NCBI GenBank assembly: GCA_018266055.1
Contig: JAFDYT010000003.1
Location: 1-41,258 of the forward strand
Direction: 5' to 3'
Origin: Bacteroidota bacterium
Lineage (GTDB): Bacteria > Bacteroidota > Bacteroidia > Cytophagales > Cyclobacteriaceae
DNA length: 41,258 nucleotides
A program made the translations under genes and the position numbers. The notes beneath the pieces were generated by a model that was not told the origin of the DNA, ran no database searches, and was given only the letters and a program-made list of their open reading frames with translations. Positions 17,993 to 23,002 of the stretch are shown here, one piece after another; the first letter of the stretch is position 1; each line of letters begins with the position of its first letter.

Positions 17993-18023
17993 TTGGCAGG
18001 AAAAGATTTTCCCATTACTTTTG
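17993..18023 (+). promoter_or_regulatory. Promoter facing the tRNA-Ser-like locus
   Basis: TTG (17993-17995), 20 bases and TACTTTTG (18016-18023) fit the Bacteroidota promoter exactly. The predicted start near 18030 is 20 bases before the first tRNA-Ser-derived copy, the leader one would expect for a tRNA gene. The intact tRNA-Ser is 370 bases further on, beyond a GIY-YIG gene. Confidence 0.7.
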
Positions 18024-18049: not shown

Positions 18050-18135
18050 AGAGGAGTGAGCGGTTTATTGCACCGGTCTTGTCCCAAGGGGATGCCTTTG
18101 ACAAAAACCGGAGACCCTTTACTGGGTTCGGGGAT
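18050..18135 (+). pseudogene. tRNA-Ser-derived element, copy A (D-stem deleted, anticodon-loop insert)
   Basis: The copy starts with the same acceptor 5' strand (AGAGGAG, 18050-18056) as the intact tRNA-Ser. It lacks four bases (GTAG) of the D-stem and carries a 22-base insert at 18082-18103, between bases 35 and 36 of the anticodon loop. The anticodon stem (CCGGT/ACCGG) and variable arm follow. The similarity fades in the T-arm after TTCGGGGATT, where the leader of the GIY-YIG gene begins. It cannot work as a tRNA. It sits directly behind the best promoter of the locus. Confidence 0.85.
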
Positions 18136-18152
18136 TAAATTAACTTTGGAAA

Positions 18153-18395
18153 GTGTATTATGCCTACATTTTGCAGAGTATTGTTACTAAGACCTTTTAT
18201 TATGGTCATTCGGAAGATTTGAATAAAAGGTTGATAAGGCATAATCAGGGAAAAGTTCGCTACACAAAGCCAAAAAGACCTTGGATTTTAATTTATAGTG
18301 AGACTTTTGACAACAGATTAGAAGCATATAGAAGAGAGTTGTTCTTCAAGTCAATTGAAGGATACAGATACCTGAAAGAGAAGGGTATCATTTGA
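18153..18395 (+). CDS. Small GIY-YIG nuclease family protein
   Basis: This 80-residue protein is a single GIY-YIG domain. The two signature strands are YAYILQS (residues 3-9) and FYYGHS (15-20). Conserved catalytic-type residues are present: Tyr5, Tyr17, Arg26 and His30 in LNKRLIRHN, and Glu62 in YRREL. Family members cut DNA as homing or repair nucleases, but short one-domain forms have no known job. The start is GTG, because no ATG exists between the upstream in-frame stop (18141) and the GIY strand. GC content is about 34 percent by hand count, well below the neighbours. It begins where tRNA-like copy A decays and ends 3 bases before the intact tRNA-Ser, and may be co-transcribed with both. 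Confidence 0.88.
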   Translation: MYYAYILQSIVTKTFYYGHSEDLNKRLIRHNQGKVRYTKPKRPWILIYSETFDNRLEAYRRELFFKSIEGYRYLKEKGII

Positions 18396-18398
18396 AAC

Positions 18399-18485
18399 AG
18401 AGGAGTGGTAGAGCGGTTTATTGCACCGGTCTTGAAAACCGGAGACCCTTTACGGGGTCCGGGGGTTCGAATCCCTCCTCCTCTG
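18399..18485 (+). tRNA. tRNA-Ser (anticodon UGA)
   Basis: A complete class II tRNA of 87 bases. The acceptor stem AGAGGAG pairs perfectly with CTCCTCT (18478-18484), with discriminator G. There is a 3-bp D-stem (GTA/TGC), an anticodon stem CCGGT/ACCGG with loop CTTGAAA (anticodon TGA), a long variable arm GACCC/GGGTC, and a T-arm with TTCGAAT. CCA is not encoded. It has no promoter of its own that I can see; transcription would come from 18030 through copy A and the GIY-YIG gene, unless a promoter lies inside that gene. Confidence 0.96.
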
Positions 18486-18494
18486 CTAGTTTAT

Positions 18495-18533
18495 AAAAGC
18501 CCTTGAATGAAAGTTCGAGGGCTTTTTATTTTT
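18495..18533 (+). terminator. Intrinsic terminator after tRNA-Ser
   Basis: AAAAGCCCTTGAA (18495-18507) and TTCGAGGGCTTTT (18514-18526) form a 13-bp stem with one G-U pair and a 6-base loop, followed by a T-rich tail. It is ten bases after the tRNA. Confidence 0.93.
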
Positions 18534-18534
18534 G
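18503..18534 (+). promoter_or_regulatory. Promoter-like sequence inside terminator 1
   Basis: TTG (18503-18505), 21 bases and TATTTTTG (18527-18534) match the promoter pattern, with the -7 box lying in the terminator's T tract. It would start a transcript near 18541, 29 bases before copy B. A chance match in T-rich DNA is possible. Confidence 0.35.
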
Positions 18535-18569
18535 ACTACCTGCGAAAAAAGTATCTGAAAAGAATAAAA

Positions 18570-18673
18570 TAAGGAGTAGCGGTTTATTGCACCGGTCTTG
18601 TCCCAAAGGGATGCCCTTGGCAAAAACCGGAGACCCTTTACGGGGTCCGGGGGTTCGAATCCCTCCTCCTCTG
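18570..18673 (+). pseudogene. tRNA-Ser-derived element, copy B
   Basis: From the anticodon stem's 3' strand to the discriminator (18673) it is identical to the intact tRNA. The 5' side is altered: the acceptor 5' strand has two mismatches (TAAGGAG), five bases of the D-stem region are missing, and a 22-base insert occupies 18601-18622 at the same anticodon-loop point as in copies A and C. The T-arm, variable arm and five acceptor pairs can still form. It would make a tRNA-like RNA with a long anticodon hairpin and no D-arm. Confidence 0.9.
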
Positions 18674-18682
18674 CTAGTTTAT

Positions 18683-18721
18683 AAAAGCCCTTGAATGAAA
18701 GTTCGAGGGCTTTTTATTTTT
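18683..18721 (+). terminator. Intrinsic terminator after copy B
   Basis: This is the same 13-bp stem, 6-base loop and T-rich tail as the terminator after tRNA-Ser, repeated base for base, so copy B keeps a complete 3' end. Confidence 0.92.
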
Positions 18722-18722
18722 G
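18691..18722 (+). promoter_or_regulatory. Promoter-like sequence inside terminator 2
   Basis: TTG (18691-18693), 21 bases and TATTTTTG (18715-18722) repeat the arrangement seen in terminator 1 and would start a transcript about 30 bases before copy C. It could be fortuitous. Confidence 0.35.
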
Positions 18723-18758
18723 GCTACCTGCGAAACTAATATCCTGAAAAAGAATTGC

Positions 18759-18863
18759 CCTGGAGTAGCCGTTTAATTGCGCCGGTCTTGTCCCGAAGGG
18801 ATGCCTTTGTCAAAAACCGGAGACCCTTTACGGGGTCCGGGGGTTCGAATCCCTCCTCCTCTG
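18759..18863 (+). pseudogene. tRNA-Ser-derived element, copy C
   Basis: The 3' half is identical to the intact tRNA-Ser. The 5' half is the most diverged: acceptor 5' strand CCTGGAG with only four pairs left, D region reduced as in copy B, and changes to CCGTTTAATTGCGCCGG. A 22-base insert lies at 18791-18812, at the same point as in A and B but with different bases at four to five positions. The anticodon stem is intact. It cannot be a normal tRNA. Confidence 0.9.
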
Positions 18864-18872
18864 CTAGTTTTG

Positions 18873-18907
18873 AAAAGCCCTTGAATGAAAGTTCGAGGGC
18901 TTTTTTA
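18873..18907 (+). terminator. Intrinsic terminator after copy C
   Basis: This is the third copy of the same AAAAGCCCTTGAA/TTCGAGGGCTTTT hairpin, with a run of six T. Unlike the first two, its tail does not contain a TATTTTTG box. Confidence 0.92.
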
Positions 18908-22906: not shown

Positions 22907-22979
<73 letters not shown>

Positions 22980-23002
22980 CTTAAAGTTTGCACGTGAACA
23001 AC

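Follow-up and report, generated by a model that had tools for sequence, protein, structure and literature searches.

A putative GIY-YIG nuclease cassette in a tRNA-Ser gene and its relatives beside tRNA and other structured-RNA genes of Bacteroidota

The mORFs of fungal mitochondria occur in atp6 of Allomyces macrogynus and in atp6, atp9, cox2 and nad3 of Glomus. There, according to the available part of the source (PMC3630166), an endonuclease ORF splits its host gene and brings a copy of the gene end, the native end being displaced and the carried end sometimes foreign; the Glomus atp9 mORF is a GIY-YIG protein (PMC3630166, in part). Free-standing, i.e., intronless, homing endonucleases are described from T-even phages (PMC3984707, PMC13096335, both in part), and one of them, the phage enzyme SegB, is encoded beside tRNA genes and promotes the tandem amplification of its tRNA region (PMC13096335, in part).

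We analysed a stretch of 41,258 nucleotides (the window) from a draft Bacteroidota genome, in which a GIY-YIG nuclease ORF stands between a hairpin-bearing, displaced copy of tRNA-Ser and an intact tRNA-Ser(TGA), with two further hairpin-bearing copies behind (Table 1). As in the mORFs, the ORF of such a cassette splits a gene and part of the host gene is repeated beyond it. Unlike the mORFs, these cassettes lie on bacterial chromosomes and in RNA genes, either half of the gene may be carried, the displaced copy has hairpins in its loops, and the ORF is only about 80 aa long. The free-standing nuclease gene adjoins tRNA genes outside an intron as that of SegB does, but the genomes are cellular, there is one cassette per tRNA gene with a displaced and marked half, and cleavage is only predicted here. 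By sequence, the nearest proteins are UPF0213 and other small GIY-YIG domain proteins, which share the single domain and the size; the UPF0213 information examined states no role at tRNA genes. Fungal mitochondrial double-hairpin elements are dispersed repeats of short paired hairpins inserted in genes and are similar to that extent, whereas the hairpin described here was found only in tRNA copies. Integrative elements at tRNA sites restore the tRNA, part of which is then repeated at their far end; the present unit differs in measuring 353 bp, in having no integrase and in the hairpins of its repeat.

To our knowledge, gene-end-replacing homing elements are known only from organelles. The matches listed in a search of titles and the beginnings of abstracts, with preprints and most subscription papers outside its scope, held no description of GIY-YIG cassettes in bacterial tRNA genes. 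In the available part of a survey of the GIY-YIG superfamily (PMC1564403), 'Bacteroid' occurs 0 times and 'tRNA' three times, none of them on tRNA genes as sites.

Judging from sequence comparison, the array is probably an intronless homing-endonuclease cassette in the tRNA-Ser(UGA) gene, of a kind that would split structured-RNA genes and carry a replacement half. By analogy, its logic would join the gene-end replacement of the mitochondrial mORFs to intronless homing, and the nuclease may work like a homing endonuclease.

Table 1. Features of the tRNA-Ser array, in positions of the window
Feature	Position	Strand	Basis
Likely -7 promoter element of the native tRNA-Ser gene, TTACTTTTG	18015..18023	+	Read from the sequence; element-free genus-mates have the same leader immediately 5' of their tRNA
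Copy A, displaced tRNA-Ser copy in native position behind the leader	18050..18136	+	Alignment; leader match to G003
Double hairpin of copy A, 22 nt	18082..18103	+	Alignment, 22-mer scan, pairing
Predicted inserted unit, 353 bp	18082..18434	+	Alignments and element-free relatives
GIY-YIG nuclease ORF, 80 aa, GTG start	18153..18395	+	PF01541, E 2.3e-13
Intact tRNA-Ser(TGA)	18399..18486	+	tRNA and Rfam calls
Terminator-like hairpin 3' of the intact tRNA	18495..18526	+	
Copy B, ORF-less, hairpin-bearing, 3' half complete	18572..18674	+	
Double hairpin of copy B	18601..18622	+	
Terminator-like hairpin 3' of copy B	18683..18714	+	
Copy C, ORF-less, hairpin-bearing, 3' half complete	about 18762..18865	+	
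Double hairpin of copy C	18791..18812	+	
Terminator-like hairpin 3' of copy C	18873..18907	+	

A preliminary description of this DNA had recognised three tRNA-Ser-like copies and one intact tRNA-Ser; all four are real, and the intact gene is the only one in the array. It had also placed a 22-nt insert at one and the same point of the anticodon loop in the three copies, which is right, although the point lies after base 36 of the gene, between G and A of TGA, and not after base 35. The loss of the 5' strand of the D-stem, which it took as a second shared lesion, does not hold: 4 nt are missing in copy A and 5 nt in copies B and C, and in a genus-mate (G005) the first copy has a different 4-nt loss and the second and third have complete D-arms (36 of 36 positions), so D-arm loss is not a family trait. 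In the alignment, copy A consists of bases 1-36 minus 4 nt of the D-arm, then the hairpin, then a decaying remainder. The inserted unit would thus comprise the hairpin, the decayed remainder, the ORF and replacement tRNA bases 1-36, and in this model bases 1-36 of the intact tRNA-Ser would be cassette-derived and the rest native. The sequence TTACTTTTG is likely the -7 promoter element of the native tRNA-Ser gene, as judged by its TAnnTTTG motif. The 3' halves of copies B and C are identical to that of the intact tRNA-Ser (52 of 52 positions), and the terminator-like hairpins behind them are copies of the one behind the intact gene; B and C are 94% alike over the query but not identical. Elsewhere in the 4.79-Mb genome (21 contigs), the query matches only one 29-nt stretch. 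The peptide CPKGMPLTKTGDP, offered earlier as a search proxy, results from reading through the hairpin of copy A, out of frame with the nuclease ORF. As to other element types, the GIY-YIG gene is the sole ORF of at least 80 aa within 18082-18434 and an integrase is absent, on which grounds a tRNA-site integrative element was rejected; a group I intron was likewise rejected, the window having no such Rfam match at the gathering threshold and 17 loci giving only tmRNA, RNase P and tRNA at E 0.01.

Close relatives show both occupied and element-free forms of the site. A DNA search of 96 related genomes found insert-bearing copies in three members of the same genus (G005, G036, G051) and in one of another family (G066), so the element that the preliminary description proposed is present in relatives. 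In G005 there are three tandem units followed by one intact tRNA, each unit consisting of the 5' half of tRNA-Ser, then the 22-nt insert, the decayed remains of a variable arm, and the ORF; their period of 350-352 bp compares with the 353 bp of the predicted window unit, and the first unit, to which the D-arm loss is confined, has a broken ORF. G066 has a single unit. Two genus-mates (G001 and G003; loci L033 and L034) are element-free at this site: yihY, leader and tRNA follow one another with no ORF between. This order, together with the alignment of the G003 leader with that of copy A up to tRNA base 1, places copy A at the native tRNA start and the intact tRNA behind the ORF.

The window ORF matches Pfam PF01541 with 50.7 bits (cut-off 22.6), and eight columns are invariant across 34 sequences, including Y5, Y16, G18, R26, H30, N31 and E62, which we take to be active-site residues. 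The ORF is under purifying selection, with dN 0.17 and dS 1.39 against G005, dN 0.24 and dS 1.73 against G036, and dN/dS of about 0.12-0.14. The nearest solved structures are two UPF0213 proteins (1zg2, 1ywl), followed by Slx1, a structure-specific DNA nuclease. NCBIfam returned nothing for five of six proteins and PHROGs nothing for four of five, the protein of the tmRNA locus (L102) giving one weak match in each, that in NCBIfam below the cut-off. Carriage by phages or plasmids was considered and rejected, all of the 19 phage and four plasmid records that match being below 60% identity.

Within the order, 24 of 291 genomes have a relative of the ORF at E 1e-12 or better. A profile built from 34 members finds relatives at E 1e-12 in 226 of 392 Bacteroidota genomes (95% completeness asked, at most 14 candidates scored per genome), a count in which one clade has no tRNA neighbours. 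Scanning genome contigs yielded 11 loci, some beyond the phylum (L070 in Ignavibacteriota, L071 in Peregrinibacteria). After four duplicates and one locus with no profile match (L076) had been dropped, 106 distinct loci were compared: a tRNA or tmRNA lies within 400 nt on the same strand in 88, on the opposite strand in 0, and 18 have none. These 106 are best-scoring matches, or one or few per genome among the rows listed, found with a profile built mainly from tRNA-linked members, and the rate of 88 of 106 holds for such best-scoring loci and not for all GIY-YIG genes. The recurrent pairing with GIY-YIG genes that had been anticipated is thereby confirmed. Same-strand tRNA density falls from 3.9 per kb within 100 nt of the ORF to 0.49 at 100-400 nt and 0.05-0.07 at 400-1000 nt. 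The nearest neighbours include tRNAs for Ser (five anticodons), Asp, Arg, Leu, Cys, Pro, Val, Ala, Glu, Asn, Phe, Gln and Gly, and one tmRNA. Two or more ORFs or pieces of ORFs are present in 25 of the 106 loci.

Four of the 18 loci without a neighbour lie at contig ends (L054, L085, L098, L103), one of which (L054) has tRNA-Val copies on both sides. At L046 the ORF stands between two hairpin-bearing tRNA-Arg copies, and at L048 an apparent tRNA-Arg 3' piece follows (judged by eye). Eleven of the 106 loci, none at a contig end, have no RNA neighbour that we could find, which counts against the homing reading; seven of these form one clade that adjoins an RNase P case on the nuclease tree. In that case (L135, G395:C16:189700-192400, minus strand), the ORF lies inside the RNase P RNA gene, close to its 5' end, in the loop that joins the two strands of a stem we read as P3. 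Of eight genus-mates compared at this site, three have the ORF DNA (G395, G500, G406) and five a short loop.

On the tree of 106 nuclease sequences, the isotype of the neighbouring tRNA clusters, with 35 changes against a shuffled mean of 64.7 and none of 200 shuffles as low, on a tree of 84 columns in which 43 of 103 forks are open and bootstrap support is not settled. The Asp, Cys, Leu and Ser groups each mix host families, and the Ser group has both layouts, i.e., the ORF upstream or downstream of the intact tRNA. Twenty rows are labelled 'none' on the tree, against 18 loci in the neighbour count, since in arrays the scored ORF can stand far from the tRNA.

On the far side of the ORF, 122 tRNA-like copies were aligned in 78 loci, a few of them unlinked or weak. 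Outside the hairpin, copy and intact tRNA are nearly identical (934 of 979 and 1002 of 1100 positions). The stretch that runs from the hairpin to the ORF has decayed, with identity at 720 of 1943 and 1296 of 2358. With local alignments and tandem copies counted singly, outer identity exceeds inner identity in 73 of 77 copies. The earlier judgement that these copies are not ordinary pseudogenes is borne out by this contrast, by the association with RNA genes and by the strand bias. That they are copies of one modified unit is likewise right, and a small mobile DNA element is the best reading; what fails is the tRNA-like copy as the unit itself, for it is one end of a nuclease cassette, and the ORF between copy A and the intact tRNA, which the preliminary description had left out of its unit, is the defining part. 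The same arrangement is seen at the tmRNA locus of G599, where, beyond the ORF, a second copy of 37 nt of the tmRNA 3' end carries a 20-nt T-loop hairpin. A remnant of the ORF was sought before copies B and C, and nothing scored above shuffled sequence (in the best case 28 of 300 shuffles were as high).

The insert itself is made of two tandem 11-nt mini-hairpins, each with a 4-bp stem and a 3-nt loop, in which 7 of 8 stem pairs form in copy A, 8 of 8 in B and 7 of 8 in C (the last counted by eye). With up to two mismatches, the 22-mer has seven matches among 39 genomes (three in G000, three in G005, one in G066), all within tRNA-Ser-like copies, and the backward control has 0. Given these matches, and in a test of this one hairpin sequence class only, an independently dispersed palindromic or double-hairpin repeat was rejected; an exact scan of viral contigs with another pattern gave 0 matches. 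Across the family, 22 nt is the commonest length of hairpin insert (32 of 95), and 28 of 35 distinct 22-mers fold into two 4-bp stems with 3-nt loops. In those 28, kept for forming at least 6 of 8 pairs, a selection that raises the paired percentage, 94.2% of cells are paired against 77.9% in shuffles. Both sides of a pair change together in 31 cells, against a shuffled mean of 6.0 and with none of 500 shuffles as high. A single long 22-nt palindrome was rejected as a model, pairing 75.4% of cells against 75.3% in shuffles. The first triloop is mostly purine-N-A and the second mostly its complement, which puts one such triloop, closed by C-G, on each DNA strand. GNA mini-hairpins are very stable in DNA, and these features hint at an action of the hairpin at the DNA level.

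With a hairpin cut-off of -3 kcal/mol or lower, the 95 hairpin-forming inserts lie in the D loop (32), the anticodon loop (13), the T loop (21), stems (23) and elsewhere (6), so that these three loops hold 66 of 95 (69%) against 34% expected by position. Displaced copies upstream of the ORF have 49 of these inserts, mostly in the D loop (29) or the anticodon loop (11); those downstream have 46, with 19 each in the T loop and in stems, and these equal shares count against homing. For 42 of the 115 distinct inserts of 12-45 nt, no more than two of 100 shuffles fold as well, so that many inserts are gaps in decayed parts. Beside Ser-group nucleases, the loop that holds the hairpin may be the D, the anticodon or the T loop, and some copies have two or three hairpins; as the positions vary within the group, they mark no single fixed cut site, a further point against homing.

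Whether the carried half can be foreign was compared at two loci. In G342, where the ORF is downstream of tRNA-Arg(CCT), six genus-mates, which have no ORF within the stretch examined, agree with the final 45 nt of the displaced copy at 43-44 of 45 positions and with the working tRNA at 35-36. The comparison covered 14 genomes, two of whose scores (L189, L194) were set aside as out of register with CCA included. L204 leans to the displaced half (40 against 36), as does the ORF-bearing L197 (41 against 35), whereas L193, L195, L196 and L206 carry the working allele of G342 instead (42-44). L195 (G734:C77) has a hairpin-marked tRNA-Arg copy of the host type upstream of a tRNA-Arg(CCT) of the other allele, with no ORF, and may be a relic that has lost the nuclease but retains the new tRNA. 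L194 has a similar marked copy, and none was seen beside the tRNA in L193 and L196. The G342 pattern fits replacement by an invading cassette; an older polymorphism is the alternative, four genomes sharing the working allele. At the other locus (L092), the working tRNA is nearer the relatives than the displaced copy in five of five comparisons (56-57 against 51-52 of 57), the differences lying in a rewritten anticodon loop, so that this locus does not bear out a foreign working half.

In the mechanism that we propose, the nuclease would cut an element-free copy of the gene, and repair from an element-bearing copy would then insert the cassette. The cassette would bring its own copy of the half that it displaces, the 5' half where the ORF is upstream of the intact tRNA and the 3' half where it is downstream. 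In this way the tRNA would stay whole, and the host's own half would be left outside, behind the hairpin. The loop hairpin might keep the displaced copy from being cut again or from tRNA function, the least certain of these steps. As every insertion would restore a complete tRNA gene, tandem arrays could grow by further rounds. Copies B and C, which have no ORF, would most simply have arisen when copy A and the intact tRNA recombined unequally and the product was duplicated. Against homing counts the fact that every unit retains an intact tRNA, i.e., the presumed target left whole, beside the displaced copy with its loop hairpin.

Other explanations account for parts of these data. The cassette could be an addiction or defence module, whose nuclease cleaves the host tRNA or its gene isotype-specifically, whose own tRNA is a resistant antidote and whose hairpin disarms the displaced host copy. 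tRNA-cutting enzymes usually act in loops, where the hairpins lie, and both the tracking of isotype on the nuclease tree and the different allele of the working tRNA in G342 would suit such a module. We nevertheless consider it unlikely: UPF0213 proteins and Slx1, the latter acting on DNA, are closest to the nuclease among solved structures, such a module would not be expected to form tandem ORF arrays, and the 5' half of the intact tRNA-Ser in the window is the same as in element-free genus-mates, so nothing marks resistance; this identity also counts against homing. It is quite improbable that the hairpin-bearing copies are functional structured small RNAs, with the nuclease gene as passenger or processing partner, for the ORF-facing part of the copy decays, copies at different loci derive from different tRNAs with hairpins at different loops, and all four window sequences whose folding was compared with that of shuffles gave z above -2, even if the covariation of the mini-hairpins (31 cells against 6.0, 0 of 500 shuffles) and the terminator-like hairpins kept at B and C are in its favour.

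If tRNA genes at repeat-rich loci had simply been duplicated in tandem and had decayed, a GIY-YIG gene standing nearby for unrelated reasons, the tandem copies and the resemblance of B and C to duplicates would be accounted for. This explanation leaves aside the strand bias and proximity of tRNAs to the ORF, the contrast between outer and inner identity, the clustering of isotypes and the RNase P and tmRNA cases, and we give it very little credence. An assembly artefact, conceivable at a repeat-rich spot in a draft of 21 contigs, is barely credible when B and C are 94% alike over the query but not identical and the same architecture recurs in other assemblies.

A broader version of the homing reading, about which we are evenly divided, is that these cassettes constitute a phylum-wide selfish class: compact, isotype-specific GIY-YIG nucleases would write over host genes for tRNA, tmRNA and other structured RNAs at the loops, put a foreign half in place and tag the host half they expel with double DNA mini-hairpins that are selected for structure, with tandem growth and foreign tRNA alleles as standing by-products in Bacteroidota. 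If true, gene-end-replacing homing elements would extend to bacterial chromosomes and to RNA genes, and the tRNA genes of a major bacterial phylum would have been repeatedly invaded and partly replaced by nuclease cassettes. The cassettes would then offer a route by which essential tRNA genes are replaced horizontally, as well as a collection of very small nucleases with isotype specificity, and they would give rise to spurious tRNA calls and to broken assemblies at tRNA loci.

Some loci deserve separate mention. At L122 (G560:C1:1621200-1623900, minus strand, 1211-1620), the 5' piece of a protein gene is followed by the ORF and then by the whole gene, presumably dTDP-glucose dehydratase-like; the piece aligns to the gene with a DNA score of 50.4 against a maximum of 44.0 in 20 shuffles. 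It looks as if the same trick had been played on a protein gene, and the clade of this locus (7 of 106 loci) is without tRNA neighbours. At L062 (G161:C12, oriented 121-1434), calls of tRNA-Asp(GTC) and tRNA-Gly(GCC) are 94-96% alike with several partial tRNA-Asp copies between them, and the tRNAs called as Gly may have arisen from tRNA-Asp by a change of anticodon. At L065 (G048:C1, oriented 1275-1349), ARAGORN reports, beside tRNA-Asp and a GIY-YIG ORF, a tRNA-Ala(CGC) whose anticodon is oddly placed, possibly a false call from a cassette. In the window itself, positions 22907-22980 hold an ordinary tRNA-Lys(CTT) with no GIY-YIG ORF listed next to it, and part of a 16S rRNA gene lies at positions 1-236 on the minus strand.
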